Origin: Mycolicibacterium tokaiense
GTDB lineage: Bacteria; Actinomycetota; Actinomycetes; Mycobacteriales; Mycobacteriaceae
Direction of reading: 5' to 3'
Assembly: GCF_010725885.1 (NCBI RefSeq)
Contig: NZ_AP022600.1
Span: forward strand, 6,076,001 to 6,140,000
DNA: 64,000 bases
In this document: piece after piece, positions 10,858 through 51,165 of the stretch
Numbering within the stretch: the first letter of the stretch is position 1
How the letters are laid out: every line of letters starts with the position of its first letter
Translations under genes and position numbers: made by a program
The notes under the pieces: generated by a model
What the model was told of the DNA's origin: nothing
The model's database searches: none
Seen by the model: only the letters and a program-made list of their open reading frames with translations

Positions 10858-10867
10858 GGTTTCCTGT

Positions 10868-19846: not shown

Positions 19847-20059
19847 CTACGAGCTCAGCGACTTCCGCAGGCTCAGCGGCCGGATGTCGGTCCAGTTCCG
19901 CTCCACGTAGTCCAGGCACTCGCTGCGGCCGGCGGCGCCGAACACCACGGTCCACCCCGCCGGCACGGCGGCGAACTCCGGCCACAGGCTGTGCTGCTCC
20001 TCGTCGTTGATCAGCACGTAGAAGGCGCCGGCTTCGTCATCGAATGGGTTGCTGCTCAT
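19847..20059 (-). CDS. mbtH: MbtH-family NRPS chaperone
   Basis: The 70-residue protein has the complete family signature: NDEEQHSLWPEF, VPAGW and YVERNWTDIRP. MbtH proteins bind adenylation domains of NRPSs and are needed for their solubility or activity. The start ATG has GAGGAG six bases upstream and overlaps the 3' end of mbtG by 23 bases. It is expected to serve MbtB, MbtE and MbtF encoded upstream in the same operon. Confidence 0.97.
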   Translation of the reverse strand: MSSNPFDDEAGAFYVLINDEEQHSLWPEFAAVPAGWTVVFGAAGRSECLDYVERNWTDIRPLSLRKSLSS

Positions 20060-35152: not shown

Positions 35153-35877
35153 GCGGCCACCCGTGCTGCGAGGGCGTCGAGGTGCTGGTGCAGGTAGAAG
35201 TGCTCGCCGTCGAACAGCTCGAAGGTGAACGCGCCGTCGGTGTGTGACGCCCAGGTGCGCAAGGAGTTCTCGGCCACCCGGGTGTCGGCGGTGCCGCCGA
35301 CTGCGTGGATGTCGGCGGGCACTCGCACGTCGGCATCACGGGCATAGGTGTTCCAGGCCCGGTAGTCGGCGCGGATGGACGGCAGCAGCATGTCGATGAA
35401 GTCGGCGTCGGCGAGCAACCGCGGGTCCGTGCCACCGAGGGCCACCACGTCGCGCAGCAGCTCCCGGTCGGTGGTGGGCACCCGCGGCGCCGCGGCCGCG
35501 GTGGACGGTGCGTCGCTGGCCGAGGCCCACAGCTGCTGCACCGGGACCCCCTGGGAATGAGCGGTTCTGGCGAACTCGAACGCCACCAGGGCGCCCATAC
35601 AGTGTCCGAACAGGCGCAATGGGGCGAGCGCGGACCAGTCCGCGGCGCCGAACAGATCGGCGGCCAGGTGTTCCAGCGTCGGCGCGGGCGGCTGTGTGAG
35701 GCGTTCTGCGCGCTGCGGATACTGCACGATGTAGGCGTCGGCCCCGGCGTGCGCCAGCGCCGTCGCAAAATCCCGGTACGTCGCGGCGGCTCCCCCGGCG
35801 TGCGGGAACACCACCACCGACACGGTGCCGCCGCCGGGGAATCGTTTGATCCACGGCTGGAATTCGAGCCGGCCCAT
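35149..35877 (-). CDS. mbtT: Stand-alone thioesterase MbtT with cysteine nucleophile
   Basis: The 242-residue type II thioesterase (alpha/beta hydrolase) has an oxyanion-region VVFPHAGGAA, a nucleophile elbow LFGHCMGALVAF with Cys93 in place of the usual serine, and a probable catalytic histidine in DGEHFYLH (His226). In M. tuberculosis a thioesterase domain is fused to the end of MbtB. Here it is a separate gene whose ATG shares one base with the mbtB stop (TGATG). It probably removes misloaded or stalled acyl groups from the carriers. The longer frame to 36060 lies within mbtB and is rejected. Confidence 0.9.
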   Translation of the reverse strand: MGRLEFQPWIKRFPGGGTVSVVVFPHAGGAAATYRDFATALAHAGADAYIVQYPQRAERLTQPPAPTLEHLAADLFGAADWSALAPLRLFGHCMGALVAFEFARTAHSQGVPVQQLWASASDAPSTAAAAPRVPTTDRELLRDVVALGGTDPRLLADADFIDMLLPSIRADYRAWNTYARDADVRVPADIHAVGGTADTRVAENSLRTWASHTDGAFTFELFDGEHFYLHQHLDALAARVAA

Positions 35878-38800
35878 CACGACGTCTCGAGCGCCGCAAT
35901 CACGTCGGCGCCACCCATCTCGGTGACCTCGAGGTACAGCTCGGCCACCGCGTCGAGCCGCTGGTTCGTCCCTTCGTGGCCGGTCAGAACGGCCGCGAGC
36001 GCCGAGACGGTACGCGCGGCGAAGATGTCCGACACGGAGACCTGCGGGGCGTCCAGCCATTCCCGGATACGCGCCACCGCCTGGGTCGCGAGCACGGAAT
36101 CACCCCCGAGAGCGAAGAAGTCGTCATTGGTGCACACGCTGTCGCGGCCCAGCAGATCGGCCACGATCCGGGCCAGCGCACGTTCCAGGGTGGTCGACGG
36201 CGCGCTGACGCGGACGCGGTCACCGACTGCCGGTTGGGCGGCCCGCTCGGCCAGCAGGGCGGCCACCGCGCGGCGGTCGATCTTGCCTCCGACGGTGAAC
36301 GGGATGGCGTCCACGATCTCGATTCGGCTCGGAATCATGTGTGGCGGAAGATGTTCGGCCAGGGCCTGCGTCAACGTCTGCGCCGTCAGGGCCGGATCGC
36401 TGACCCGGGCGATGGCCGCCAGCTGCTGGCGTCCGGGCACGTCGAGCACCGTTGCAACGGCGCCGTCGACGCCGCCGACCTTGCTGAATGCGCCCTCCAC
36501 CTCGCCGAGTTCGATGCGGTAGCCGCTCACCTTCACCCGGTGATCGACCCGGCCGACGAAGTCCAGCACCCCACCCGGGGTGTAGCGGACGAGGTCACCG
36601 GTGCGGTACCAGGTGCGATCGTCATACGTGACGAAGCGCTCGGCGGTGAGGTCGGGGCGGCCGCGGTACCCGTTGGCCACACCGCGTCCGGTGACCCAGA
36701 ACTCCCCCGGTACCCAGTCCGGGCAGTCGGTGCCGTCGGCGGCCACCACGCGGCAGGAGTTGTTCGGAAACGGTGCTCCCAGCGGGATGGCCGACCACTG
36801 CGGCTCGAGCGGGCCAGGCTCGAAAATGGTGCAATGCGTGGCAGTTTCGGTGGCGCCGGCCAGTCCGGCCACCCGCACCGTTGGCGCCTCGGCGCGCAGG
36901 GCTCGGACCATCTCCGGGCGCACCCAGTCGCCGCCGGTGGGGACCACCCGCAGCGACTGAAGCCGGCCGTGCCCGACTTCGAGCAGCATCTCCAGCCAGC
37001 CGGGCAGGAAGTTCAGCACGGTGACACCGTGTTGGTGGATGAGCCGGGCCCACTCGTCGGGATTGCGGCGATCCTGCTCATCGACCACCACCACCGACCC
37101 GCCGGCGCGCAACATGCCGAACACGTCGAGCACGGACATGTCGCATTCCAGGGTGGACAGGAACAGCACCCGGTCGCGGGCACCGATCTCGAAGTACCCA
37201 TTGAGGAACTCGATGGTGTTCATGGCGCCGTCGTGGCTCATCTCGACGCCCTTGGGTTCGCCGGTGGAACCCGAGGTGAACAGGATATAGGCGGTATCAC
37301 GCGGGTCGACGCGGGCTGGTTCGGTGTCGGCGATCGAGCCGGCTCCCTGCTCGATGGCCTGGGCGACGGTCAGTGCCGGTATGGGCATGGGCTCGATGGT
37401 GCTGCCACACACCAGGATCGAGTGCGCACCGGCAGTCTCGAGGATACGGCGGGCACGGTCGGCCGGCTGGTCCACTCCGACGGGCAGGTAGGTGGCCCCG
37501 GCCGCGGAGATCCCGAGCAGTGCCGGGATCTGCTCGGCGGTCTTGGGTCCCATGACGGCCACCACGTCACCCGGGCGTACCCCCCGGTGGCGCAGCGTGG
37601 CCGTGACAGCCAGCACCTGATCGCGCAACTGCGCATAACTGAGGTCGCCGAGGCTGCTGAACACCGCCGGGGCGTCGGGAGTGGCTGCCGCGGCGTGGAA
37701 GAACCCGTCGTGCAACGCGTCACCGCTGGGCGCGGCCCGAACGCCGTTGAGCTGGTCGCGGATCTGCTGCTGGTCCGCCGGTACCGGCGATGGATCCGGG
37801 GCATCCCAGGCGGCGTCGTCGGAAGCCAGGCGGTGGAGTTCGGCCAGGTGGTAGGCGAACATCGCGTCGATCACGCCGGGGCGGAAGGCATCCTCGCGGA
37901 CATCCCAGTTGAGCAGCAGGCCGCCGTCGAAGGGCGTGATCTGGGCGTCCAGCAGCACCTGCGGTCCTTGCGAGATGTGCCACACCGGGGTGCCGAACTG
38001 CTCGGTGACGTCGCCGGCGAACAGATCACCCAGGCCCAGTGCGCTGGTGAACACGAACGGCGCCAGTACCTGGGTTCCGCGGTGGCGGGTGAGGTCGCGC
38101 AGCACCGAGAGCCCGGAGTAACTGGAGTGGGCGACCGTGCTGTGCAGCGTGTCCTGCACCACCTGCGCGCGTTCGGCGGCGGTGGTGGTGTCGGTGAGGT
38201 CGATGTCGAGCATCAGCGACGACGTGAAGTCGCCGACCAGTTTGTCGACGTCGGCGTGGTAGGGCTCGCGGCCGAACATCGGCAGGTTGAGCAGGAAGCG
38301 TGAGTTGGTGGACCACCGGCGCAGCACACCGGAGTACGACGCTACGACCGCCATGGCAGGGGTGATCCCGCGGCGCTGGGCGGCGGCGAACAGCGCCTCC
38401 TTGGCGGTGGCGTCGAAGAAGTGGTGCCTGCGGGTGTTGCGGCGCGGATCGGCCTGTTCGGAGCGGGGCACCAGCGGCGGGGCCGGCGGTTCAGGCAGCT
38501 CGGGGATGCGGGCGGCCCACCAGGCTCGGTCCGCCTCGGTGGGCGCGGGGTACTGCGCGATGTACGCCGACCGGTACTGCCGGTAGGTGTAGCGCAGTGG
38601 CGGCAGGTCGTCGCCCTTGTAGAGGGCCGCGAGGTCGGCCATGAAGTTGCGGTAGCTCACCGCGTCGGCGGCCTGCATGTCGAGGTCGACGTGGACGCGG
38701 GTGGCGCCGTCGGGCAGCAGGGTCAGCGCGATCTCGAGCACTTCACCGTCGAGGATCTGATGGCTCTTGCGGTCCCGGATGATCTCCAGCTGCTCGCGGG

Positions 38801-39353
38801 CGGCCGCGTCGTCGAGGTGACGCAGGTCGGTGATCTTGGGCAGCAGTGTGCGGTCGCCGATGCGTTGGGTGCCGTCGGGCAGAATGTCGACCCGCAGCAT
38901 CGGGTGCCGGTCTGACAGGGCCGCGGCGGCCGCCCGCAGGCGCTCGGGATCGACTCCGCGGCCGTCGAATTCGACGTAGAGATGTGCGGCGACACCACCG
39001 AGGGCCTGATCGGAGTTGCGGCCCACCCAGAGCGCGTGCTGGATGGGAGCCAGGGGGAACGGTGCTGCGGGGTCGTCGCCGTCCGTCTGCTCGGGCGGGG
39101 TGGCCGGCGTCTGCGGCGCCGCGCGACGCGAGACCAGGTCAGTCCAGGCCGAGACGGTGGGCTGCTCGGCCAGGGCGGCGAAGCCGACATCGATACCCTG
39201 CTTACGCCAGCGCCCCGACAGCGCCATCATGCGGATGGAATCCAGCCCGGCGGCGATCAGGTCGGCGTGCGGGTCGAGGTCGTGGGGGCTGACACCGAGG
39301 AGTTCGGCCACCTCGGTGTGGACGGTGTCAGCGGTGGTCGCGACGACACCCAC
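35877..39353 (-). CDS. mbtB: Mycobactin NRPS MbtB (ArCP-Cy-A-PCP)
   Basis: The 1158-residue NRPS begins with an aryl carrier domain (Ser39 in AAGLDSIRMM). A heterocyclisation domain follows with the D-x4-D-x2-S motif DMQAADAVS. Then come an adenylation domain (FTSGSTGEPKG, YRTGD) and a carrier with Ser1086 (LGGDSVLATQ). It accepts the aryl acid from MbtA and condenses and cyclises serine or threonine to the oxazoline. The C-terminal thioesterase domain found in M. tuberculosis MbtB is absent and supplied by mbtT. The GTG start has GGAGG eight bases upstream, and an IdeR-type box lies 17 bases from the start codon. Confidence 0.95.
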   Translation of the reverse strand: MGVVATTADTVHTEVAELLGVSPHDLDPHADLIAAGLDSIRMMALSGRWRKQGIDVGFAALAEQPTVSAWTDLVSRRAAPQTPATPPEQTDGDDPAAPFPLAPIQHALWVGRNSDQALGGVAAHLYVEFDGRGVDPERLRAAAAALSDRHPMLRVDILPDGTQRIGDRTLLPKITDLRHLDDAAAREQLEIIRDRKSHQILDGEVLEIALTLLPDGATRVHVDLDMQAADAVSYRNFMADLAALYKGDDLPPLRYTYRQYRSAYIAQYPAPTEADRAWWAARIPELPEPPAPPLVPRSEQADPRRNTRRHHFFDATAKEALFAAAQRRGITPAMAVVASYSGVLRRWSTNSRFLLNLPMFGREPYHADVDKLVGDFTSSLMLDIDLTDTTTAAERAQVVQDTLHSTVAHSSYSGLSVLRDLTRHRGTQVLAPFVFTSALGLGDLFAGDVTEQFGTPVWHISQGPQVLLDAQITPFDGGLLLNWDVREDAFRPGVIDAMFAYHLAELHRLASDDAAWDAPDPSPVPADQQQIRDQLNGVRAAPSGDALHDGFFHAAAATPDAPAVFSSLGDLSYAQLRDQVLAVTATLRHRGVRPGDVVAVMGPKTAEQIPALLGISAAGATYLPVGVDQPADRARRILETAGAHSILVCGSTIEPMPIPALTVAQAIEQGAGSIADTEPARVDPRDTAYILFTSGSTGEPKGVEMSHDGAMNTIEFLNGYFEIGARDRVLFLSTLECDMSVLDVFGMLRAGGSVVVVDEQDRRNPDEWARLIHQHGVTVLNFLPGWLEMLLEVGHGRLQSLRVVPTGGDWVRPEMVRALRAEAPTVRVAGLAGATETATHCTIFEPGPLEPQWSAIPLGAPFPNNSCRVVAADGTDCPDWVPGEFWVTGRGVANGYRGRPDLTAERFVTYDDRTWYRTGDLVRYTPGGVLDFVGRVDHRVKVSGYRIELGEVEGAFSKVGGVDGAVATVLDVPGRQQLAAIARVSDPALTAQTLTQALAEHLPPHMIPSRIEIVDAIPFTVGGKIDRRAVAALLAERAAQPAVGDRVRVSAPSTTLERALARIVADLLGRDSVCTNDDFFALGGDSVLATQAVARIREWLDAPQVSVSDIFAARTVSALAAVLTGHEGTNQRLDAVAELYLEVTEMGGADVIAALETS

Positions 39354-39369: not shown

Positions 39370-39388
39370 TTAGTACAGGCTGCCCTAA
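39370..39388. promoter_or_regulatory. IdeR (iron-regulator) box in the mbtA-mbtB divergent promoter
   Basis: TTAGTACAGGCTGCCCTAA matches the 19-base IdeR consensus TTAGGTTAGGCTAACCTAA at 14 positions and keeps both TTAG/CTAA ends. On the mbtB strand it covers a TACTAA -10-like hexamer (39370-39375). A TATATT -10 for mbtA is seen at 39406-39411. Iron-loaded IdeR would block both directions. Confidence 0.8.
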
Positions 39389-39453: not shown

Positions 39454-41130
39454 ATGAGCGCGGGATTCGACGGTCGGCACGCCGATGACCTGGACCATTA
39501 CCCGGATCTGGCCCGCGGCTTCGTGCCGTTCGCGCCCGAGCGCGTGACCGCGTACCGCGAGAAGGGGTTCTGGACCGGCGATCCGCTGGATTCGATCCTG
39601 CGCGACGCCGCCGCGGCCTGGCCGGACCGCACCGCGGTCGTCGACACCGAGCACCGATACACCTTCGCCGAACTCGACGCGCTGGCTGACCGGGTGGCGG
39701 GCCGGATCGCAGCCCTGGGCGTGCTGCCGGGTGACCGCATGCTGCTGCAGTTCCCCAACACGTGCCAGTTCGCCGTCGCATTGTTCGGGCTGCTACGCGC
39801 CGGGGTGGTGCCCGTGCTGTGCCTGCCAGGGCACCGCGCCGCCGAGATGGGGCACTTCGCCGCGGTGAGCGGCGCCGTGGGCCTGGTTGTGCCCGAGCCC
39901 ACCGCCACCTTCGACTCCCGCGCCATGGCCGCACAGCTGGCCGCTGAGCATGCCGCGCTGCGGCACATCATCATCGACGGGCCCGCCGCGGGTGCGCAGG
40001 TGTCGTGGTCGACGCTGACCGCCCCCGGCGGACCGGACGCGCCACCTCGTCTGAGCGTGGACACCACGCTGCCGGCCGTGCTCCTGGTCTCCGGCGGCAC
40101 CACCGGCCTGCCCAAGCTGATCGCTCGCACCCACGACGATTACGTCTACAACGCCCGGACCTGCGCGCAGGCCTGCGGAATGACTTCTCGCGACACGTAT
40201 CTGGTGGTGCTGCCTGCGGGTCACAACTTCCCGCTGGCCTGTCCGGGACTGCTGGGTTCGATGACGGTGGGCGCCACCACCGTGTTCACCACCGACCCCA
40301 GCCCGGAGGCCTGCTTCGCGCTGATCGACCAGCACCGGGTGACGGTGACCGGTCTGGTCAACGCGCTGGCCAAGGTCTGGACCCAGGCCTGCGAGTGGGA
40401 GCCGGTGCTGCCGACATCGCTGCGCTGGGTGCAGGTGGGCGGGTCGCGGATGTCGCCACAGGAGGCCGAGTACATCCTCGACGGCCTGTCCCCCGGGCTG
40501 TCTCAGATCTTCGGAATGGCCGAGGGCATGCTGAATTTCACCTACGTCGGCGACCCGCGGGAGGTGGTGGTACACACCCAGGGCCGCCCGATGTCACCCG
40601 CCGACGAGATGCGGGTGGTCGATGAGACGGGCGCCGAGGTGGCACCCGGCGCCGAAGGTGAGCTGCTGGTGCGCGGCCCCTACACGATCAACGGCTACTA
40701 CCGCGCCGAGGAGGCCAACTCCCGCTCCTTCACCCCCGACGGCTTCTACCGGTCCGGCGACCGGGTTCGTCTGTTCGCCGAGGGACCCCGTGCGGGTTAC
40801 GTCGAGGTGGTGGGCCGGATCAAAGACGTCATCCACCGCGGCGGTGAGACCGTCTCGGCGACCGATCTCGAAGACCACCTGCACACCCATCCGGGCATCG
40901 TGTTCGCCGCGGCGGTGCCGTTGCCCGACGAATTCCTCAGCGAGAAGATCTGTGCTGCCGTGGTTTTCGGCGGGCCACCGATCACCCTCACCGAGCTCAA
41001 CGCCTATCTCGACGAGCGCGGCGCGTCCACACACGCCCGCCCCGACGTGCTGGTGCCGCTTCCTTCACTGCCCACGACGGCGGTGGGCAAGGTGGACAAG
41101 CCGGCTCTGATCGCCCAGCTCCTGGGGTGA
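39454..41130 (+). CDS. mbtA: Aryl-acid AMP ligase MbtA (salicylate/6-methylsalicylate activating)
   Basis: The 558-residue stand-alone adenylation enzyme activates the aryl acid and loads it on the MbtB aryl carrier. The P-loop is LLVSGGTTGLPKL. The aryl-acid pocket segment GHNFPLACPG has a cysteine where 2,3-dihydroxybenzoate enzymes carry serine, which fits a monohydroxybenzoate-type acid. FGMAEG and YRSGD follow, and GKVDKPAL holds the catalytic lysine. It is divergent from mbtB and iron-regulated through the shared IdeR box. The neighbouring 6-MSAS-type PKS suggests the natural substrate may be 6-methylsalicylate. Confidence 0.95.
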   Translation: MSAGFDGRHADDLDHYPDLARGFVPFAPERVTAYREKGFWTGDPLDSILRDAAAAWPDRTAVVDTEHRYTFAELDALADRVAGRIAALGVLPGDRMLLQFPNTCQFAVALFGLLRAGVVPVLCLPGHRAAEMGHFAAVSGAVGLVVPEPTATFDSRAMAAQLAAEHAALRHIIIDGPAAGAQVSWSTLTAPGGPDAPPRLSVDTTLPAVLLVSGGTTGLPKLIARTHDDYVYNARTCAQACGMTSRDTYLVVLPAGHNFPLACPGLLGSMTVGATTVFTTDPSPEACFALIDQHRVTVTGLVNALAKVWTQACEWEPVLPTSLRWVQVGGSRMSPQEAEYILDGLSPGLSQIFGMAEGMLNFTYVGDPREVVVHTQGRPMSPADEMRVVDETGAEVAPGAEGELLVRGPYTINGYYRAEEANSRSFTPDGFYRSGDRVRLFAEGPRAGYVEVVGRIKDVIHRGGETVSATDLEDHLHTHPGIVFAAAVPLPDEFLSEKICAAVVFGGPPITLTELNAYLDERGASTHARPDVLVPLPSLPTTAVGKVDKPALIAQLLG

Positions 41131-41158: not shown

Positions 41159-44100
41159 TCAGCAGGCCTCGACCGATTCGCGGCCCGCGGTGAGCAACTC
41201 GACGAGGTGGCTGGTGACGGCCGCCGCGGTGGGGTGTTCCCACAGCAGGGTCGGCGGTAGCGCCAAACCCGTCTGCTTCTCCAGCGCCCGCCGCACCGCC
41301 ACCGTCATGATGGAATCCACCCCGATCTCCACCAGTGGCATGGCGAGGTCCACGTCGTCGGCCGCCAGTCCCAGCTCGGCGCCCACCGCGGCCAGCACCT
41401 GCTGCTGTGCCCACTCGGCCGGATCGGTGTCACCGGGCCCGGCGGGGGTGCCCTCGTGTTCTGTTGCGGCGTGGTGTGATTCGGCTTCCGGCGCCACCGC
41501 GGCCAGCATCGGCACCGCCGCGGCCGCGGGGAGCACCGGCAGCACCGCCAAGTGCGCGCGGTCGGCGCGCAGGGCGTTGTCGAGTGCGGCCAGAGCGTCG
41601 TCGGCGGCTACGGTGCCCATGCCGAGCGCCTCCAGCTGCGCGGCGATGAAGCCGGAGGTGGACCCCATGCCCAGGCCGCGCCACGCCGTCCACGCCACGC
41701 TGGTGGTCCGGTCACCGAGGTTGCGGCGGTGCTGGGCGAACACGTCCAGGAACGCGTTGGCAGCGGCGTAGGCGCCCTGCCCCGGGAATCCGGGCAGGTA
41801 GCCGCAGGACGAGAACAGCACCAGCCAGTCCAGCTCCCCCGGCGCGAAGACCTGATGCAGTGCCAGCGCACCGTCGACCTTGGGGCGCATCGTCGCGGCC
41901 AGGTGAGCGCCAGTGGTGTCCAGCAGAAGCGCTCCCGCTTCGACTCCGGCCGCGTGGATCACCCCACGCACCCGGGGCAGGTCGGCCAGCGCCGCCCGCA
42001 GTGTCTCCGCGGCGTCGGGCGCGCCGATGTCGACCGCGGCCACCTGCACGCTGACACCTCGCTCCTCGAGCGCGGCCACCACCCGCGTCGCCTCGGAATC
42101 GATGCCGCCCCACTGCGATCGCGGCGGCACACCGGACCGCGACAGCAGAACCAGCCGCCGCGCTCCCCGATCGGCGAGGTGCTGCGCCATCCGCAGCCCC
42201 AGCGCTCCGGTGCCGCCGGTGATGACATACGTTCCTGCCGGCGAACAGGTCAGCGGGGCACCGGGCCCGGGTGCGACGGGCTCCAGGTGGGCCACCCGGG
42301 CCACCCCGCCACGCACCATCACCACGCCGTTGCCCGCCAGGGAAGCCAGGGCGCCCAACGGTATCCGCGCATCGGCGAGGTCCAGCACGCCACCCCACAC
42401 CCGGGGGTGCTCGGCGGCGGCCACCCGGGCCACCCCCCACAGCGGCGCGTGGGTCACGTTGTCGCCCTCGTGCACCCGCTGGGTGAGCACCCAGAGCCGG
42501 GCGCGGCCGGTGTGCATCACGGCGAGGGCGTCGAGCACCTGCCGCACCGATTCCGCAGCAGGGTCCTGCTCGCTCGGCAGCATCAGCACCACGGCACCCG
42601 GGCCCAGATCGCCCGGTAACCCTTCAGGATCGGGGCACAGCCGGAACGGGACGCCGGCCGCGGTGAGGACTGCCTGCACCACCGCCAGCGTGTCCGGATC
42701 GCCACCGACGAGCACCACCTCGTCGGGCCGGGCGTCGGCGGGGTACGGCGTCGACGACCACACCAACTCGTGCAAGATCTGTCCGGAGGGGCCCGCGTTC
42801 TCGAGTTCCTCAAAGCCCATGCCATGCAGGTACACCAGCACTGCACCCGCGGTGTCCCGGATGGTGACGTCGGTGATCGTCGTCCCGGGACGACGCACCA
42901 CGTGGATGACGCCCACGGCCGGCGCGGCGCCGTACACGCGCACCCGGTCCACCCGGGCAGGCATGCGCAGCCGGGGTGGCCCGTCGAACACCGTCGAGGC
43001 GGCGGAGGTGGCGGCGTCGAGCAGGCTCGCCCAGCTGGCCGGCACCGAGCCGTCAGCCTCCGCGGACACCCGCGCGAGCAGTTGGCCGGCGCCGCGGCGC
43101 AGATCCAGGATGTCCCAGCCGAATCCCATGGCAGCCACGCCGAGTCCGGCCAGCGTGGACACGACGTGGCCCGGTGCGAGCACCTCCGGGCAGTCCGGTT
43201 GTGCGGGTGTGGGTTCCACGCTGTCGACGGCTACCGCCGCGGTGCTGTGGGTGAGCCACCCGCCCTGTTCGTCATCGATCAACCGGGTGGACAGGGTCAA
43301 CGCGCCGTCGCGGCGAACCAGCTGGACATCGCGGGTGCGTCCGGGTGCCACCGGGGTCCGTAGTCGCACGTCTGACAGATCGGCGCCGGCCGCGGCGAGG
43401 AAGGTGTTCAGCAGCACGGCCGCGGGCACGATCTCGGTGCCCTGCACCGGGTGGTCCCCCGGGTAGGGGCGGGTGTCCAGGTCGAGGCGCGTCTGCCACA
43501 CCACCGTCGAGGTGGTGGCGACATCCAGTCGTCCGCCGAGCAGAGTGTGCGTGGCGACGTCGTGGACGCCATGTCCACCGGGCGGCGGGGTCGGGGTGCG
43601 CCAGAAGTGCCGGTGCTGCCATTGCGTGCCGGGCAGATCACAGGCCCAGGGGCCGCGGCGAGATCGCACCACGACACCGTGGCAGTGCAGCGCCGCCACC
43701 GCCGCGTGGACCGCTCGCGTCTGCGGCTGGTCACGCCGCAGTACCGGGATCACCACCGGGTCGGGCTTCCCCAGGTGCGTCACCGTTTCGATCACGGAGT
43801 GCGCCACCACCGGATGCGCGGAGACCTCCACGAACACGCGGTGGCCGTCCTGTACGGCGGCGCTCACCGCTTCGGCGAACCGGACCCGGCCCCGCAGGTT
43901 GATCACCCAGTAGTCGGGATCGCGGGGCGCCGCCGACCTCGGGTCAGCCAGGGCCGTCGAGTACAACGGGACACATGCGGGCGCGGACGGCCCCAATTGT
44001 GCCGTGAGACGGGCCAAGTCACCGGTCAGAGCGTCCATTGCGGGGCTGTGGAACGCCACGTCGGTGGCCACCCGACGCACCGACACACCCTCATCGGCCC

Positions 44101-46237
44101 ACTCGGCGCACACCGCCTCGACAGCGCCGATCGCACCGGAGATGACGCAGGCCACCGGCGAGGAACTGATGGCCGCCACCACGTCGGTGCGGCCCTGTAA
44201 CCGGGCGTCGGCCTCGTCGTACGGCAGACCCACCAGCGCCATGGCGCCGTAGCCCTGCACGGTGCGGAACCCGCGTGCCCGGTAGCACGCGACGTGAGCG
44301 CCCTGTTGCAAGCTCAGCACACCGGAGACCACGCAGGCGGCCACCTCGCCGACCGAATGGCCGATCACCGCGGACGGTTCGACGCCGCGCTCCCGGAGCA
44401 CGGCTGCCAGCCCGACCTGGATGGCGAATGTCAGCGCCTGGACCCGATCCGTGCCACCGAGTTCACCGGTCCGCAGCGCCTCCCGTGGCGAGAATCCCAG
44501 CTCGTCGGCGAACACCGGCGCCACCGCATCGATCACCTCGGCGAACCGCGTTTCAGTGTCCAGCAGCTCGGAACCCATTCCCGCCCAATGCGATCCGTGC
44601 CCGGAGAACACCCAGACCGCACCGGTGTCCGGCACAGCGGTGCCTGTCACCACCCGGGGGTCGCGCTCGCCCGCCGCAATGGCCCGCAGCGCCGCCGCGG
44701 CGTCGTCCCGGCTCTCGGCGACCACGGCGGCCCGGACGGGCTCGTGTGAGCGCCGGGTCCACAAGGTGGTGGCCACCTGCTCGAGTGGTTGCCCGTCGAG
44801 CGCGTCCGCCAGCGCTGCGGCCTGGATGGTCAGCCGGGCCTGTGATCGGGCCGAGATCGGAAGTACCACGGGGAGAGGTTCTTCGGACGTCTCGGCAGCC
44901 GACTCAGGTGCCTCTTCGAGCAGCACGTGCGCGATAGTGCCGCCGTATCCGTAGCTGCAGACCGCCGCACGCCGTGGGCCCTGCGCCTCTCGCCACGGCT
45001 CGGGCTCGGTGGGCACCCGCAGTCCGCTGGCGGGCCAGTCGAGTGCGCGGGTCATCTTCCGGATACCGGCGGTGGCCGGAATGACTTTGTGGTGCAGCGC
45101 CAATGCGGCCTTCATCAGGCCGACCACCCCGGCGGCGCCTTCGAGATGGCCGGTGTTCGGTTTCACCGAGCCGACGGCGCAGGGCGCGTCACGACCCGCT
45201 CCGTACACCTGCGCCAGCGCAGTGAGTTCGACGGGATCGCCGGTGGGCGTTCCGGTTCCGTGCGCCTCGATGAAGCCCACGGAGTCCGGTGGCACCTGCG
45301 CGACGGCGCACGCCCGGCGGAACAGCTGGGCCTGGGCGTCACCGTTGGGCGACATGATGCCGACGGTGCGGCCGTCCTGGGCCACCGCGCCGCCGCGGAT
45401 CACCGCCAGTACCCGGTCGCCGTCGCGGCGGGCGTCGGACACCCGTTTGAGCACCACCACCGCAGCGCCCTCCCCGCGGCCGTAACCGTCGGCGGATGCG
45501 TCGAATGACTTGCAGCGCCCGTCGGGCGCGGTGGCCCCCGCGACGTCGAGGACGCGGGTGAGGCCGGGCCCGATCAGCGCGCTCACCCCACCGGCGAGGG
45601 CCAGCGTCGTCTCGCCGTCGCGTAGCAGCTGGCAGGCCTGGTGCACCGCGACCAGGGAGGCCGCGCAGGCGGCGTCCAGCGCGACGCTGGGCCCGCGCAG
45701 GTCGAGCAGATGCGACACCCGGTTGGCGACGCCGCACAACGAGGTTCCGATACCGGTCCACGCTTCGATGCCCGGCAGGTCTTCCATCAGCAGCTTGCCG
45801 TAGTCGTCGGAGTTCACGCCCATCAGCACCGCGGTGTCACTGCCGGCCACCGAACGCGGTGCGATGCCCGCGTGCTCGAGGGCTTCCCAGCACACCTCGA
45901 CCGCCAGCCGCTGCTGCGGGTCCATCAGCTCGGCCTCGCGCGGTGACACTCCGAAGAACTCGGCATCGAAGCCGGCGAGGTCGTCGAGGAAGGAGCCAAA
46001 TGGGTTGGTCTCTGTGAGCACGGCTGCGTTGCGGGGATCGCGGCGCAGGTAGGGCTCCCACCGCTCGGCGGGGATCTCGCGGACCGCGCTGCCGCCGTCG
46101 AGCAGGAACTGCCAGAACTGCGCGGGGGTGGTGACGTCGCCGGCAAGGCGGCATCCGATGCCGACGATCGCGATCGGTTCCGGGGCGGGTTGGGGCTCTA
46201 CCGTGGTCTGGGTAGGCTTGCCTAACAACTCGTCCAT
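41159..46237 (-). CDS. Iterative type I PKS of the 6-methylsalicylic acid synthase type (KS-AT-DH/TH-KR-ACP)
   Basis: The 1692-residue single-module PKS is similar in size to fungal 6-MSAS. The KS has Cys191 (DAACAASL), EAHGTGTPTGD and KPNTGHLEGA. Stretches such as GPGLTRVLDVAGA, CKSFDASADGYGRGEGA and GIMSPN closely resemble 6-MSAS ketosynthases. The AT has Ser628 (GHSVGEV). The dehydratase/thioester-hydrolase-type domain has His929 in HPVQGTEIVP. The KR has TGGTGALGLRMAQHL with Tyr1490 (GQGAYAAANAF), and the ACP has Ser1642 (IGVDSIMTV). No thioesterase is present. It lies convergent with mbtA, where M. tuberculosis has mbtJ-mbtI. It is predicted to make the aryl starter of the siderophore. 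Confidence 0.88.
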   Translation of the reverse strand: MDELLGKPTQTTVEPQPAPEPIAIVGIGCRLAGDVTTPAQFWQFLLDGGSAVREIPAERWEPYLRRDPRNAAVLTETNPFGSFLDDLAGFDAEFFGVSPREAELMDPQQRLAVEVCWEALEHAGIAPRSVAGSDTAVLMGVNSDDYGKLLMEDLPGIEAWTGIGTSLCGVANRVSHLLDLRGPSVALDAACAASLVAVHQACQLLRDGETTLALAGGVSALIGPGLTRVLDVAGATAPDGRCKSFDASADGYGRGEGAAVVVLKRVSDARRDGDRVLAVIRGGAVAQDGRTVGIMSPNGDAQAQLFRRACAVAQVPPDSVGFIEAHGTGTPTGDPVELTALAQVYGAGRDAPCAVGSVKPNTGHLEGAAGVVGLMKAALALHHKVIPATAGIRKMTRALDWPASGLRVPTEPEPWREAQGPRRAAVCSYGYGGTIAHVLLEEAPESAAETSEEPLPVVLPISARSQARLTIQAAALADALDGQPLEQVATTLWTRRSHEPVRAAVVAESRDDAAAALRAIAAGERDPRVVTGTAVPDTGAVWVFSGHGSHWAGMGSELLDTETRFAEVIDAVAPVFADELGFSPREALRTGELGGTDRVQALTFAIQVGLAAVLRERGVEPSAVIGHSVGEVAACVVSGVLSLQQGAHVACYRARGFRTVQGYGAMALVGLPYDEADARLQGRTDVVAAISSSPVACVISGAIGAVEAVCAEWADEGVSVRRVATDVAFHSPAMDALTGDLARLTAQLGPSAPACVPLYSTALADPRSAAPRDPDYWVINLRGRVRFAEAVSAAVQDGHRVFVEVSAHPVVAHSVIETVTHLGKPDPVVIPVLRRDQPQTRAVHAAVAALHCHGVVVRSRRGPWACDLPGTQWQHRHFWRTPTPPPGGHGVHDVATHTLLGGRLDVATTSTVVWQTRLDLDTRPYPGDHPVQGTEIVPAAVLLNTFLAAAGADLSDVRLRTPVAPGRTRDVQLVRRDGALTLSTRLIDDEQGGWLTHSTAAVAVDSVEPTPAQPDCPEVLAPGHVVSTLAGLGVAAMGFGWDILDLRRGAGQLLARVSAEADGSVPASWASLLDAATSAASTVFDGPPRLRMPARVDRVRVYGAAPAVGVIHVVRRPGTTITDVTIRDTAGAVLVYLHGMGFEELENAGPSGQILHELVWSSTPYPADARPDEVVLVGGDPDTLAVVQAVLTAAGVPFRLCPDPEGLPGDLGPGAVVLMLPSEQDPAAESVRQVLDALAVMHTGRARLWVLTQRVHEGDNVTHAPLWGVARVAAAEHPRVWGGVLDLADARIPLGALASLAGNGVVMVRGGVARVAHLEPVAPGPGAPLTCSPAGTYVITGGTGALGLRMAQHLADRGARRLVLLSRSGVPPRSQWGGIDSEATRVVAALEERGVSVQVAAVDIGAPDAAETLRAALADLPRVRGVIHAAGVEAGALLLDTTGAHLAATMRPKVDGALALHQVFAPGELDWLVLFSSCGYLPGFPGQGAYAAANAFLDVFAQHRRNLGDRTTSVAWTAWRGLGMGSTSGFIAAQLEALGMGTVAADDALAALDNALRADRAHLAVLPVLPAAAAVPMLAAVAPEAESHHAATEHEGTPAGPGDTDPAEWAQQQVLAAVGAELGLAADDVDLAMPLVEIGVDSIMTVAVRRALEKQTGLALPPTLLWEHPTAAAVTSHLVELLTAGRESVEAC
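46207..46225. promoter_or_regulatory. IdeR-like box within the first codons of the 6-MSAS-type PKS
   Basis: TCTGGGTAGGCTTGCCTAA matches the IdeR consensus TTAGGTTAGGCTAACCTAA at 14 of 19 positions, as well as the mbtA-mbtB box does. It covers roughly codons 5-11 of the PKS gene. No usable ATG or GTG start exists downstream before the KS motifs, so the box is intragenic. With a start-site promoter it would act just downstream of +1. Confidence 0.6.
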
Positions 46238-46276: not shown

Positions 46277-47098
46277 CTACCCGAGGGTGATCTCGGCAGC
46301 CAGGGTGCCGAGCACCTTGAGCGCATCGGCGCTGGGTGAGTCCGGTTCGGCGTGGTAGACCACCAACTCCTGGCCGGGACTCGAGCGCACGTCGAAGGTC
46401 TGCATGGTCAGCGTCATCGCCCCCACCGCGGCGTGGCAGAACCGCTTCGACGTCCACGTCTTGCCGCGCGCATCGTGCTCGGCCCACAGCTCGGCGAACT
46501 CCGGACTGGCGTCCAGGAGGTGGGCCAGCACGGCGCGGATGCGCGGGTCGTCGGGAGCCAGCCCGTGCCCGTGGCGGAAGCCCGCCACCGAATCCCGCGC
46601 CACCACCGACCAGTCGGTATAAAAGCTACGGGCGCCCGGCTCGGTGAACACCACGTGCAACAAGTTGGTCGAGTGCGCCCAGCCGCCGAACAGTGCGTCG
46701 GCCATCGCATTGGTGGCCAGGACGTCGTAGGCACGGTTGTAGACCAGCGCCGGGTTGTCCGGCCACATATCCATCAGCTGCAGCAGGGCCGGATCCACGG
46801 CGGTGCTGCCCGCGCCGATCTCCCGCGGGCTCAGCCCGGCGAGCCGGAAGAGGTGGCCTCGGCCGTCGTCGGGCAGTTGCAACGCCTGCGCCAGCGAGTC
46901 CACGACCGCCGGTGACGGCCGGGTTTCACGGCCCTGCTCCAGGCGCGTGTAGTAGTCGACCGACAGGCCCGCCAGCGCGGCCACCTCTTCGCGGCGCAGA
47001 CCGCTGACCCGGCGCTGCCCGTAACTGGTCAACCCGATGTCGGCGGGCGAGACCGCGCTGCGCCGCGCACGCAGAAAATCCCCGAGTTCTCCTGCCAT
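46277..47098 (-). CDS. MmyB-type helix-turn-helix transcriptional regulator
   Basis: The 273-residue protein has an N-terminal XRE-type HTH (RRVSGLRREEVAALAGLSVDYYTRLEQGRE, read in pieces) and a C-terminal MmyB-like ligand-binding domain (NPALVYNRAYDVLATNAMADALFG). The ATG at 47096-47098 gives MAGELGDFLRARR, the usual family N-terminus. Upstream extension is unsupported. It is divergent from an SDR gene across a gap with two dyads. MmyB/SDR pairs are common in actinobacteria, the regulator typically acting on the adjacent oxidoreductase gene. Confidence 0.9.
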   Translation of the reverse strand: MAGELGDFLRARRSAVSPADIGLTSYGQRRVSGLRREEVAALAGLSVDYYTRLEQGRETRPSPAVVDSLAQALQLPDDGRGHLFRLAGLSPREIGAGSTAVDPALLQLMDMWPDNPALVYNRAYDVLATNAMADALFGGWAHSTNLLHVVFTEPGARSFYTDWSVVARDSVAGFRHGHGLAPDDPRIRAVLAHLLDASPEFAELWAEHDARGKTWTSKRFCHAAVGAMTLTMQTFDVRSSPGQELVVYHAEPDSPSADALKVLGTLAAEITLG

Positions 47099-47111
47099 GA
47101 CATCGATGTTA

Positions 47112-47162
47112 GGTCGTGCCGACCGGTCACGACCCGTTCCTGGGTGCGCTGCACCCAGGAAC
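47112..47162. promoter_or_regulatory. Two adjacent inverted repeats, candidate MmyB operators
   Basis: The first dyad is GGTCGTG-N9-CACGACC (47112-47134). The second has perfect 12-base arms, GTTCCTGGGTGC and GCACCCAGGAAC, around GCT (47136-47162). Both lie between the divergent MmyB-type regulator and the SDR gene. The second is strong enough to be an operator for that regulator. Confidence 0.6.
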
Positions 47163-47229
47163 ACCGCATCCTTTTTCGACCGCGGGTTCCGGCGCAGAGT
47201 GACTGGTGACACCGGACCGAAGGAGAATC

Positions 47230-47943
47230 ATGAGCAAGTCCGTAGCGCTGGTCACCGGGGCCAGCAGTGGAATCGGCCGCGCCATCGCCCGCCGGCTGGC
47301 GAACGACGGCATGACGGTGATCGCCGGCGCCCGCCGCCTCGATCTGCTGCACGAGCTGGCCGGCGAGGTCGACGGGATAGAACCCCGCGAGCTGGACGTC
47401 ACCGATCGCGGCTCCGTGCAGGCGGCGGTGGACGACATCGTGGCCCGGCACGGACATCTCGATGTGCTGGTGGCCAACGCCGGGGTGATGCCGTTGTCGC
47501 GGCTGGACGCCGGCCTGGTCGACCAGTGGGACCAGATGATCGACGTCAACGTCCGTGGGCTGCTGCACGGGCTGGCGGCGGCGCTGCCGGTGTTCGGCCG
47601 TCAGGAAAGCGGCCATGTGGTGACCATCGCGTCTGTCGGCGCGCACGAGGTCGGCCCCACCTATGCGGTGTACAGCGGCACGAAGTTCGCCGCGTGGGCC
47701 ATCACCGAAGGGCTGCGGCAGGAGTCGCCGCCGTGGCTGCGGGTGACCACCATCTGCCCCGGCGTGGTGACCAGCGAACTCGCCGAGACCATCACCGACC
47801 CGGTGGCCCGCGACGCGATGGCCGAGTACCGGCGCAACGCCATCTCCCCCGAGGCCATCGCCGATGCGCTGGCCTACGCCGTCGGCACCCCGCCGGAGGT
47901 CGACGTCAACGAGATCATCATCCGCCCGGCCGCCCAGCGGTGA
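47230..47943 (+). CDS. Short-chain dehydrogenase/reductase
   Basis: The 237-residue classical SDR has VTGASSGIGRAIA (cofactor loop), NAGV, and the catalytic YSGTK (Y-x3-K) preceded by a serine in TIASVGAHE. The ATG at 47230 has AGGAG five bases upstream. An in-frame upstream start would add eight residues without support. It is probably controlled by the divergent MmyB-type regulator. The substrate is unknown; NADP(H) preference cannot be told reliably. Confidence 0.9.
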   Translation: MSKSVALVTGASSGIGRAIARRLANDGMTVIAGARRLDLLHELAGEVDGIEPRELDVTDRGSVQAAVDDIVARHGHLDVLVANAGVMPLSRLDAGLVDQWDQMIDVNVRGLLHGLAAALPVFGRQESGHVVTIASVGAHEVGPTYAVYSGTKFAAWAITEGLRQESPPWLRVTTICPGVVTSELAETITDPVARDAMAEYRRNAISPEAIADALAYAVGTPPEVDVNEIIIRPAAQR

Positions 47944-47991
47944 TTTCGGCGCGCGCGTGACCGCGCAGCGGTTACCAGCGCGCCGAAGTCA
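47941..47991. terminator. 51-base dyad spanning both convergent stop codons, likely bidirectional terminator or dispersed repeat
   Basis: Arms of 14 bases, TGATTTCGGCGCGC (47941-47954) and GCGCGCCGAAGTCA (47978-47991), pair with one mismatch. The loop holds a second stem, GTGACCGC with GCGGTTAC. The outer arms contain the stop codons of the SDR gene and of hemW. The structure could terminate both transcripts. Confidence 0.6.
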
Positions 47992-49161
47992 CTCGAGCAG
48001 GGAGCGGACCACGCCGTCGGCGAGCAGTCGCCCGCGGTCGGTGAGCACCAGGCGGTCACCGTGGACGGCGGCCAGTCCCTCGGCCACCACGGCGGGCACC
48101 CGCTCCCGCTCGACGGGGCGCAGCAACTCCAGCGGCAGTCCTGCGCGCAGGCGGACGTTGAGCAGGACGTCCTCGACGTGCCGGTCGCCGTCGGAGAGTT
48201 CCTCGAAGTCGGCGATGGGCAGCTCCCCCGCTTCGAGCTGTGCGGCATAGGCATTGGGGTGCTTGGCATTCCAGAACCGGGTTGCCCCGATGAAGCCGTG
48301 GGCGCCGGGGCCTGCGCCCCACCACTGGCCGCCGCCCCAGTAGCCGAGATTGTGTCGGCACTCGCCACCGGGGCGGCTCCAGTTCGACACCTCATACCAG
48401 TCGAACCCGGCGGCGCGGACCATACCGTCGAGCAATTCGTAGCGCGCCGCCAGCACGTCGTCGTCCACCGCCGCCATCTCGCCGCGGCGGACCCGCCGGG
48501 CCAGCGCGGTGCCGTCCTCGACCACCAGGGCGTAGGCCGACAGGTGGTCGACGCCGGCACCGATGACCGCGTCCACCGAGCGGCGCAGATCGTCGTCCGT
48601 CTCACCCGGCGTGCCGTAGATGAGGTCCAGGTTGACGTGGTCGAAGCCGGCCGCCGACGCCTCGCCCGCTGCGGCGACAGCCCGGCCCGGGGAGTGGGTG
48701 CGGTCCAGCAGGCGCAGCACGTGCGCCGCCGCGGACTGCATGCCCAGCGACACCCGGGTGTAGCCGGCCCCCCGGATCTGGTCGAAGAACTCCGGTGATG
48801 TCGATTCGGGGTTGGCCTCGGTGGTCACCTCGGCGTCCGGCGCCAGCTCGAAGGCGTCCCGCACCGCGTCCAGCACGGCGGCCAGCCCGGAGCCACCCAG
48901 CAACGACGGTGTGCCGCCGCCGACGAACACGGTGTCGACCACCGGGGCGGGCAGCTGCGCGGCGCCGAGCTGCAGTTCCCGGCGGACCGCCGCGAGCCAG
49001 CCGTCGGGATTGGCGCCACCCAGCTCACCCGGGGTGTAGGTGTTGAAGTCGCAGTATCCGCAGCGGGTGGCGCAGAACGGGACGTGCACGTAGATCCCGA
49101 ACGCACCACCGCGGGTCATGGCGAAGCGGGGCGCTTCGCGCGCTGCGGGTGGAGCGGTCAT
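47989..49161 (-). CDS. hemW: Radical SAM protein HemW/HemN-like
   Basis: The 390-residue radical SAM enzyme has the [4Fe-4S] motif CATRCGYC (C-x3-C-x2-C), FVGGGTPSLL, and the HemN_C-type C-terminal domain. Mycobacterial copies are annotated hemN (Rv2388c). The sequence type fits HemW, a heme chaperone/insertion protein, rather than oxygen-independent coproporphyrinogen oxidase, but this is a family-level judgement. The ATG at 49159-49161 gives the M. tuberculosis length; the 638-residue frame extending into nirA is rejected. It is converged upon by the SDR gene. Confidence 0.9.
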   Translation of the reverse strand: MTAPPAAREAPRFAMTRGGAFGIYVHVPFCATRCGYCDFNTYTPGELGGANPDGWLAAVRRELQLGAAQLPAPVVDTVFVGGGTPSLLGGSGLAAVLDAVRDAFELAPDAEVTTEANPESTSPEFFDQIRGAGYTRVSLGMQSAAAHVLRLLDRTHSPGRAVAAAGEASAAGFDHVNLDLIYGTPGETDDDLRRSVDAVIGAGVDHLSAYALVVEDGTALARRVRRGEMAAVDDDVLAARYELLDGMVRAAGFDWYEVSNWSRPGGECRHNLGYWGGGQWWGAGPGAHGFIGATRFWNAKHPNAYAAQLEAGELPIADFEELSDGDRHVEDVLLNVRLRAGLPLELLRPVERERVPAVVAEGLAAVHGDRLVLTDRGRLLADGVVRSLLE

Positions 49162-49299
49162 GCACTCCAGTCTCCCCCAACCAGCGGATCGGTCCCGGCG
49201 CGGGTTTCGCTCAGGGTGAGCCCAAGTCTGGCCTGATTGGGTGCCATGAGGGCGGCGTGGCAGAATGGCCGGGTGATCGCCGCACGTAAGCCAGCTCTC

Positions 49300-49356
49300 G
49301 TGTCGCGGCGGCATGTCGATTTCAAGCGTGTCTGTAGCTGTTGCTGTCTGCCTTGA
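49300..49356 (+). CDS. Polycysteine leader peptide upstream of nirA (cysteine attenuator)
   Basis: A GTG-started 18-codon ORF encodes MSRRHVDFKRVCSCCCLP and ends in TGA at 49354-49356. Four cysteine codons lie within five codons near the end. Leaderless polycysteine short ORFs are known in mycobacteria as cysteine-responsive attenuators: ribosome stalling at low Cys-tRNA opens the downstream mRNA. There is no Shine-Dalgarno before the GTG, which fits a leaderless transcript. The sulfite reductase operon begins 118 bases downstream, and its ribosome-binding site sits in a hairpin. Confidence 0.8.
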   Translation: MSRRHVDFKRVCSCCCLP

Positions 49357-49450
49357 CGGCTTGATCTCGCCCAGCCTGCCCATAACCTCAGCTGGCCGCC
49401 GGATCTGCGTCGACCGGTCAGCCCCCGGTAGCAGCGCGCTCCGAACGCCG

Positions 49451-49466
49451 GCTCCTGTCCAGGAGC
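49451..49466 (+). promoter_or_regulatory. Hairpin sequestering the nirA Shine-Dalgarno
   Basis: GCTCCT (49451-49456) and AGGAGC (49461-49466) pair perfectly around GTCC. AGGAG is the nirA ribosome-binding site, 8 bases before the ATG at 49474. Alternative pairing controlled by translation of the upstream polycysteine ORF would expose it when cysteine is scarce. Confidence 0.65.
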
Positions 49467-49473
49467 ACATCAC

Positions 49474-51165
49474 ATGACATCTTCTGAGAAGAACCCGGCC
49501 AAGGCCCGTCCCGTCAAGCGTCCTCGGGGTGAGGGCCAGTGGGCCCTCGGCTACCGGGAACCGCTGAACCCCAACGAGCAGGCCAAGAAGGACGACAACC
49601 CACTCAACGTGCGGGCGCGCATCGAGAACATCTACGCCAAGGGCGGCTTCGAGAGCATCGACAAGGGTGACCTGCGCGGCCGGTTCCGCTGGTGGGGTCT
49701 CTACACCCAGCGCAAGCCCGGCTACGACGGCACCTGGACCGGTGACGACAACACCGACATGCTCGAGGACGAGTACTTCATGCTGCGGGTGCGCAGCGAC
49801 GGTGGCGCGCTGACCACCGCGGCCCTGCGCACGCTCGGTGGAATCTCCACTGAGTTCGCCCGCGACACCGCCGACCTCTCCGATCGGGAGAACGTCCAGT
49901 ACCACTGGATCCGGGTCGAGGACATGCCGGAGATCTGGCGCCGCCTCGACGAGGTCGGTCTACAGACCACCGAGGCGTGCGGCGACTGCCCACGTGTCGT
50001 CCTGGGTTCACCGCTGGCCGGGGAACACCCCGACGAGGTGCTCGACGGCACCCCGGCGGTCGACGAGATCGTCAAGCGCTACATCGGCAAGCCGGAGTAC
50101 TCGAACCTGCCGCGCAAGTTCAAGACCGCGATCTCCGGCCTGCAGGACGTGGTGCACGAGGTCAACGACGTGGCCTTCGTGGGAGTCCACCACCCCGAAC
50201 ACGGCCCCGGGTTCGACCTGTGGGTCGGCGGCGGGCTGTCCACCAACCCGATGCTGGGCCAGCGGGTCGGCGCCTGGGTGCCGCTGGACGAGGTGCCCGA
50301 CGTCTGGGAAGGCGTGGTCAGTGTCTTCCGTGACTACGGTTACCGCCGGCTGCGGGCCAAGGCCCGGCTCAAGTTCCTCATCAAGGACTGGGGCGTGGAG
50401 AAGTTCAGGGAAGTTCTCGAAACCGAGTACCTGAAGCGGCCGCTGATCGACGGCCCTGCGCCCGATCCGCTCACCCGGCCGATGGACCACGTGGGCGTGA
50501 CCAAGCTCAAGAACGGGCTCAACGCCGTCGGAGTGGCGCCGATCGCGGGGCGCGTGTCGGGCACCATCCTCACCAAGGTCGCCGACCTGGCCGAGGCGGC
50601 CGGGTCCAACCGGGTGCGCTTCACGCCCTACCAGAAGCTGATCGTGCTCGACGTGCCTGATGACGAGGTGGCCAACCTCCAAGCTGCGCTCGAAGAACTG
50701 GGCCTGCCGTCACAGCCGTCGAACTGGCGGCGCAACCTGATGGCCTGCACCGGCATCGAGTTCTGCAAACTGAGCTTCGCGGAAACCCGCAAGCGGTCGC
50801 AGTCGCTGGTGCCCGAACTGGAGCAGCGGCTCGAGGACATCAATGCCCAACTGGACGTGCCGGTGACGGTCAACGTCAACGGGTGCCCCAACTCGTGCGC
50901 GCGGATCCAGATCGCCGACATCGGCTTCAAGGGCCAGATGGTCGACGACGGCGACGGCGGACAGGTCGAGGGTTTCCAGGTGCATCTGGGTGGCAGCCTG
51001 GGCCTGGACAGCGGTTTCGGCCGCAAGCTGCGCCAGCACAAGGTCACCTCCGAGGAGCTCGGACCCTACATCGACCGGGTTACTCGCAACTTCGTGAAAC
51101 AACGAGAGGCCGGAGAGCGTTTCGCCCAGTGGGCTGTGCGAGCCGACGAAGCGGACCTGAGGTGA
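49474..51165 (+). CDS. nirA: Ferredoxin-dependent sulfite reductase (NirA/SirA)
   Basis: The 563-residue siroheme/[4Fe-4S] enzyme reduces sulfite to sulfide. The cluster ligands are in CTGIEFCKL and NGCPNSC. The family repeats are seen in the N-terminal half (LRVRSDGGALTTAALRTL) and C-terminal half (VRFTPYQKLIVLDV). It is the first gene of a three-gene unit with APS reductase and a sirohydrochlorin chelatase (siroheme supply). AGGAG lies 8 bases before the ATG within a hairpin, so translation is probably cysteine-controlled. M. tuberculosis NirA (Rv2391) is a sulfite reductase despite its name. Confidence 0.95.
   Translation: MTSSEKNPAKARPVKRPRGEGQWALGYREPLNPNEQAKKDDNPLNVRARIENIYAKGGFESIDKGDLRGRFRWWGLYTQRKPGYDGTWTGDDNTDMLEDEYFMLRVRSDGGALTTAALRTLGGISTEFARDTADLSDRENVQYHWIRVEDMPEIWRRLDEVGLQTTEACGDCPRVVLGSPLAGEHPDEVLDGTPAVDEIVKRYIGKPEYSNLPRKFKTAISGLQDVVHEVNDVAFVGVHHPEHGPGFDLWVGGGLSTNPMLGQRVGAWVPLDEVPDVWEGVVSVFRDYGYRRLRAKARLKFLIKDWGVEKFREVLETEYLKRPLIDGPAPDPLTRPMDHVGVTKLKNGLNAVGVAPIAGRVSGTILTKVADLAEAAGSNRVRFTPYQKLIVLDVPDDEVANLQAALEELGLPSQPSNWRRNLMACTGIEFCKLSFAETRKRSQSLVPELEQRLEDINAQLDVPVTVNVNGCPNSCARIQIADIGFKGQMVDDGDGGQVEGFQVHLGGSLGLDSGFGRKLRQHKVTSEELGPYIDRVTRNFVKQREAGERFAQWAVRADEADLR

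Follow-up and report, generated by a model that had tools for sequence, protein, structure and literature searches.

A 6-methylsalicylate-synthase-type polyketide synthase beside mbtA as the probable substitute for MbtI in Mycolicibacterium tokaiense and its relatives

The mycobactin locus of Mycolicibacterium tokaiense carries a polyketide synthase (PKS) gene tail to tail with mbtA, the aryl-acid AMP ligase gene. We analysed a stretch of 64,000 nucleotides around it (the window; positions 6076001–6140000 of contig NZ_AP022600.1, a complete genome of 6.33 Mb in one contig) and conclude that the PKS is very probably a 6-methylsalicylate synthase (6-MSAS) dedicated to mycobactin, its product loaded by MbtA to give a methylated aryl cap and the salicylate synthase MbtI lost. 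A sequence-only reading of the window had proposed a KS–AT–DH/TH–KR–ACP protein of 1692 residues convergent with mbtA; the ORF (open reading frame) list and Pfam bear out the protein, and the two ORFs do converge, with 28 bp between them. The PKS, mbtA and two iron-box-like sites lie as follows:

41159..46237, minus strand: PKS ORF, 6-MSAS-type iterative, KS–AT–TH/DH–KR–ACP, 1692 aa (ORF list, Pfam, alignment, KS tree and TH structure match; start codon uncertain).
39454..41130, plus strand: mbtA, encoding the PKS-associated type of aryl-acid AMP ligase (profile, tree, diagnostic residues and structure match).
46207..46225, minus strand: IdeR-type iron-box-like site at the PKS 5' end (14/19 in the better reading, 13/19 in the PKS-strand reading).
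39370..39388, strand not assigned: IdeR-type iron-box-like site in the mbtA–mbtB intergenic region (14/19).

Pfam divides the PKS into ketosynthase (KS, 20–391), acyltransferase (AT, 541–855), N-terminal dehydratase half (DH-N, 897–972), ketoreductase (KR, 1335–1520) and acyl carrier protein (ACP, 1612–1678); the second DH half scores 19.5 bits, under the cut-off of 23.7, and no thioesterase domain is listed by the scan. A single KS–AT–TH/DH–KR–ACP module (TH, thioester hydrolase) lacking a thioesterase is the architecture of 6-MSAS. The main catalytic residues of all five domains are kept in 63–64 of the 64 aligned orthologues. The TH/DH domain is of the aromatic-PKS kind: among solved structures, both sequence and fold bring it closest to the product-template domain of AviM (7vwk), with which its His/Asp pair aligns. 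Mycocerosate synthase and erythromycin modules top the whole-length structure matches over KS–AT, yet the TH domain has its nearest match elsewhere. Nor does the KS fall with unrelated modular PKSs, in keeping with the sequence-only reading; our KS tree groups it with actinobacterial PKSs, including KR-less relatives of orsellinate-synthase architecture, and apart from four other mycobacterial PKSs (second-class matches of the TH-region search, without further annotation). The relatives in this tree are all unnamed, its rows including no named 6-MSAS, ChlB1 or AziB sequence; eight short loci (L118–L125) yielded no KS row and were dropped, L130–L133 were unused, and the two KS copies of L047, like L046, lie outside the iterative clade. 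The gene is single-copy in the genome, with other PKS matches at 686 bits or less against 3740 for the PKS itself.

AviM is described as a PKS that makes orsellinic acid for avilamycin, and related iterative PKSs are credited with the naphthoic acid moiety of neocarzinostatin (both PMC2636887). With an orsellinate PKS as the nearest named TH/DH relative, and with the chain length of 6-methylsalicylate a presumed one, the window PKS might instead make some other ortho-hydroxy aromatic acid, either similar to orsellinate or longer and naphthoate-like, that MbtA loads as the cap. We consider this unlikely: the window PKS has a KR, whose motif residues are identical in 64/64 orthologues, which speaks against orsellinate. 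6-Methylsalicyl mycobactins are known from classical chemistry, and we know of none with naphthoate. The product is thus best predicted as 6-methylsalicylate, as the sequence-only reading had it.

No salicylate synthase (TIGR03494) exceeds the family cut-off of 325 bits in the window, where the lack of mbtI had already been noted, or in the rest of the genome, a search set beforehand as a test of the proposed replacement; MbtI as defined for canonical mycobactin, by TIGR03494 over cut-off, is therefore missing here. A hidden MbtI was considered and rejected, the three matches below the cut-off (172, 82 and 78 bits) being TrpE, isochorismate synthase and PabB. Salicylate formation by a PchB-type lyase was rejected likewise, TIGR01803 giving two weak matches in the genome (25.6 and 22.2 bits against a cut-off of 73.35).

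We then searched 198 Mycobacterium genomes, an even sample of the genus with a single genome for each species and completeness of 90% or more, for the PKS TH region, the salicylate synthase family and MbtA (E 1e-110 or better). PKS presence is bimodal, with a best match of at least 290 bits in 76 genomes and at most 120 in the rest; 102 genomes have mbtI over cut-off, the gene being broken in G069 and G171. Among the 167 genomes with mbtA, 65 hold the PKS only, 91 mbtI only, 11 both and 0 neither, where about 35 with neither would be expected under independence (Fisher p 3e-35 for complementarity, descriptive only, as related genomes are not independent). By the same thresholds, PKS and mbtI are both absent from the 31 genomes without mbtA, which are presumably not mycobactin producers; one of them, G081, has a partial salicylate-synthase-like match under cut-off (202 bits). 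The proposal that a polyketide route replaced the chorismate route gains more from this distribution than from the evidence first offered for it, and a genus-wide swap with transitional states goes beyond what the window could have revealed. Outside the genus, relatives of the PKS are rare and distant: an order-wide sample has matches at E 1e-50 or better in 27/298 genomes (18 Mycobacterium, the other nine 38–48% identical), and a phylum-wide sample in 7/396, six of them Mycobacterium. On Pseudonocardia plasmid pLS1-1 (L134, 9717–22367), a 50% identical PKS sits in an insertion-sequence-flanked cluster with an adenylate-forming enzyme, a cupin, an acyl-CoA reductase and a P450, which shows this enzyme type in a different role.

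Linkage to mbtA is close to universal. PKS and mbtA share a contig in 72 of the 76 PKS genomes (53 convergent, 19 same-strand), and their matches lie no more than 6.3 kb apart in 71/72 (14.2 kb in G011); three further genomes have them on different contigs, and the last, G069, has no mbtA row among the matches listed. We compared 44 PKS loci in detail, 36 mycobacterial and 8 non-mycobacterial. Environmental species with the PKS include M. parafortuitum (L024) and M. vanbaalenii (L026). mbtA is present in 32/36 mycobacterial loci, the contig ending less than 160 bases from the PKS match in the other four; no MbtA match of at least 90 bits occurs in the 8 non-mycobacterial loci. Three arrangements recur: (a), as in the window, hemW, PKS and convergent mbtA with no mbtI between; (b) hemW, mbtI, PKS, mbtA, with mbtI and PKS adjoining in 8/36 mycobacterial loci; and (c) a codirectional PKS that follows mbtA. 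Named species among the eight loci of arrangement (b) are M. septicum, M. porcinum, M. setense, M. senegalense and M. houstonense; by coordinates, (b) also occurs in G018, G118, G125, G131, G167 and G182. The five remaining genomes with both genes keep mbtI elsewhere, open in G027, G102 and G154 and broken in G069 and G171; hemW, the landmark of the ancestral mbtI site, lies beside the displaced gene in G102, G069 and G171, the three inspected for it. Transitional states exist, with mbtI beside the PKS in the M. fortuitum complex or elsewhere, intact or broken. Two loci whose MbtA groups with that of the (b) loci, L034 and L043, show no mbtI within the locus itself, the PKS there adjoining hemW directly. 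The PKS frame of G069 (L054 and L055) is split as well as its mbtI, and these breaks, like that of mbtI in G171 (L057), may reflect decay or draft-sequence error.

Iron-box-like sites follow the gene arrangement. Sites were scored against the IdeR consensus, taking the better of both readings in the window scan and a single reading with a threshold of at least 13/19 in the upstream survey. The window has two sites at 14/19 or better, against a mean of 0.2 in five window shuffles. Across 60 distinct PKS upstream regions, a box occurs in 31/34 convergent loci, 7/8 with mbtI upstream and 4/5 in loci without mbtA, as against 0/9 for PKS genes behind mbtA on the same strand and 0/4 for L056, L084, L086 and L087, likewise same-strand; shuffled regions reach threshold in 3/300. 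These counts indicate that PKS genes needing their own promoter carry a box and those readable from the mbtA promoter do not. Upstream regions of mbtA have the box in 67/67 (shuffles 1/335) and those of mbtI in 16/21; both genes are reported to have iron boxes in M. abscessus (PMC9505556). We are unsure of the PKS start codon, because the window box overlaps the first predicted codons while in L058, L059, L026 and L010 a GTG follows the box.

These patterns bear on whether the PKS is a chance neighbour of mbtA that serves another metabolite or a cell-wall lipid, the cap still being salicylate made by an unrecognised lyase acting on isochorismate. The genome does encode an isochorismate synthase, and the Pseudonocardia plasmid places a related PKS in a different type of cluster, with its adenylate-forming enzyme and P450. 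We judge it very unlikely, given complementarity with mbtI in 167/167 mbtA genomes, PKS–mbtA linkage in 71/72, boxes that track arrangement and a genome with no PchB-type lyase over cut-off.

MbtA itself falls into two classes. A tree of 77 rows, 18 from mbtI-only genomes (of 91 such) and 59 from PKS-bearing genomes, with three pairs of identical sequences, separates the two sources with support of 100. Seven positions discriminate them (PKS-type/mbtI-type): 303 N/P, 332 R/K, 352 I/V, 359 M/L, 380 M/L, 450 V/L and 525 S/A. Genomes with both genes contribute 14 rows, and these have the PKS-type residue throughout, bar one row at 359. The closest solved chain to the window MbtA is 5kei (782 bits). 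Residue numbers of the window MbtA match those given for the M. tuberculosis enzyme (PMC10745912) between about 212 and 436 and shift afterwards, with an offset of about four residues starting at 448; in that account 332 and 352 are docking contacts, and 303 and 359 adjoin contacts 302 and 360. Of the five diagnostic positions as far as residue 380, two are contacts (p 0.046); aryl-side contacts with their neighbours take in 4/7 of all (p 0.0002, for a set picked after seeing the result). The PKS-type MbtA of genomes with both genes, together with the 65/167 mbtA genomes that lack mbtI over cut-off, makes it extremely improbable that both routes count in PKS-type species, with mixed caps and the PKS accessory to salicylate taken from the surroundings or made elsewhere; both genes do co-occur in 11/167 mbtA genomes, and cahuitamycin producers are reported to use both starters side by side (PMC4757757).

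We therefore favour 6-methylsalicylate made for mycobactin, and propose the following course. Under low iron, IdeR would free both the PKS promoter and those of mbtA/mbtB. One acetyl and three malonyl units would then be condensed by the PKS, its KR reducing once, and the TH/DH domain would cyclise the chain and release free 6-methylsalicylate. The matching class of MbtA would adenylate this acid and load it onto MbtB, so that mycobactin would gain a methylated aryl cap. On this view the chorismate-to-salicylate enzyme MbtI has been lost.

Several observations weigh against this scheme. The choice of 6-methylsalicylate over other aromatic acids leans on the intact KR and on known mycobactin chemistry, and the nearest named domain belongs to the orsellinic acid PKS AviM; Gly933 of the TH/DH motif HxxxGxxxxP is kept in only 47/64 orthologues. 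The genome encodes isochorismate synthase, 11 genomes hold both PKS and mbtI (broken in two), and 3/34 convergent PKS loci score under 13 for the box. The diagnostic MbtA residues coincide with a single deep split and may mark no more than lineage. The solved salicylate-AMP ligase 5wm2, which we take to be CahJ, carries the salicylate-type residues at 303 (Pro), 352 (Val) and 359 (Leu); if that identity is right, the PKS-type residues are not required. CahJ is proposed to load 6-methylsalicylate (PMC4757757).

Parallels exist in known systems. The window shares with an M. tuberculosis-type mycobactin cluster the divergence of mbtA from mbtB, MbtD, an iron-box-like site between the two genes and hemW nearby, but has the PKS instead of MbtI and an MbtA of the other class. 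ChlB1 of chlorothricin is a bacterial 6-MSAS with KS–AT–DH–KR–ACP on one protein, as in the window. In cahuitamycin, a 6-MSAS of the same one-protein architecture is proposed to feed the assembly line via a salicylate-AMP ligase (PMC4757757); by that account its gene is unlinked and works alongside the salicylate synthase CahI, whereas the window PKS gene adjoins mbtA and 65/76 PKS-bearing Mycobacterium genomes have no mbtI reaching cut-off. A 2009 study placed a Mycobacterium PKS clade beside fungal 6-MSAS (PMC2636887), and the window PKS, of the same genus and KS type, very likely belongs to it; mycobactin supply would offer a possible function for that clade, left unexplained at the time. 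We found no earlier account linking 6-MSAS to mycobactin in the open-licence literature, judged by titles and abstract starts, which does not prove absence; the linked PKS gene, the replacement of mbtI, the genus-wide complementarity and the transitional states appear to be new. A likely gene can now be assigned to the 6-methylsalicyl mycobactins, and the PKS explains how a mycobactin pathway is possible in 65/198 Mycobacterium genomes that lack mbtI over cut-off. Drug-discovery work targets MbtI (PMC10675255, PMC7918538); PKS-type species would be expected to go on making siderophore when MbtI is inhibited, whereas MbtA inhibitors might stop them.

More tentatively, and with somewhat less than even confidence, the genus may contain two mycobactin lineages, in which a 6-MSAS and a re-specialised MbtA were joined once, passed through a two-route stage (the M. 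fortuitum complex) and then saw repeated loss, displacement or breakage of mbtI, the PKS family being the Mycobacterium clade sister to fungal 6-MSAS. If so, the nearest bacterial relative of the patulin and lichen-acid enzymes would be encoded by an iron-scavenging gene. The intermediate loci offer natural examples of swapping one biosynthetic logic for another.

The remainder of the mycobactin cluster and its neighbours are as follows (NRPS, non-ribosomal peptide synthetase; SDR, short-chain dehydrogenase/reductase):

35877..39353, minus strand: mbtB, NRPS (adenylation domain TIGR01733 over cut-off; name by position).
35149..36060, minus strand: thioesterase (PF00975).
33866..35152, minus strand: ketosynthase at the mbtC position (profile scan and position).
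30969..33869, minus strand: MbtD (NF037940 over cut-off, 1304 bits).
25789..30972, minus strand: large ORF at the mbtE position (name by gene order only).
21338..25792, minus strand: large ORF at the mbtF position (name by gene order only).
20037..21341, minus strand: MbtG-like lysine/ornithine N-oxygenase (PF13434).
46277..47212, minus strand: MmyB-type regulator between hemW and the PKS (Pfam; a neighbour that need not be part of the mycobactin system).
47206..47943, plus strand: SDR-like ORF divergent from the MmyB-type regulator (named from sequence only).
47989..49905, minus strand: hemW (TIGR00539 over cut-off; ORF over-long at the 5' end, domain from about residue 271).

The mbtA/mbtB pair, MbtD and an iron-box-like site together mark this as a mycobactin cluster. 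TIGR00539 confirms the identity of hemW, which the sequence-only reading had placed directly after the PKS; the regulator and the SDR-like ORF in fact intervene. Among the loci compared, the MmyB-type regulator is present solely in the two nearest relatives (L058 and L059). Near the far end of the window, two large ORFs (8407–11133 and 11875–14277) share the same dimethylglycine-oxidase-like DAO–GCV_T make-up.
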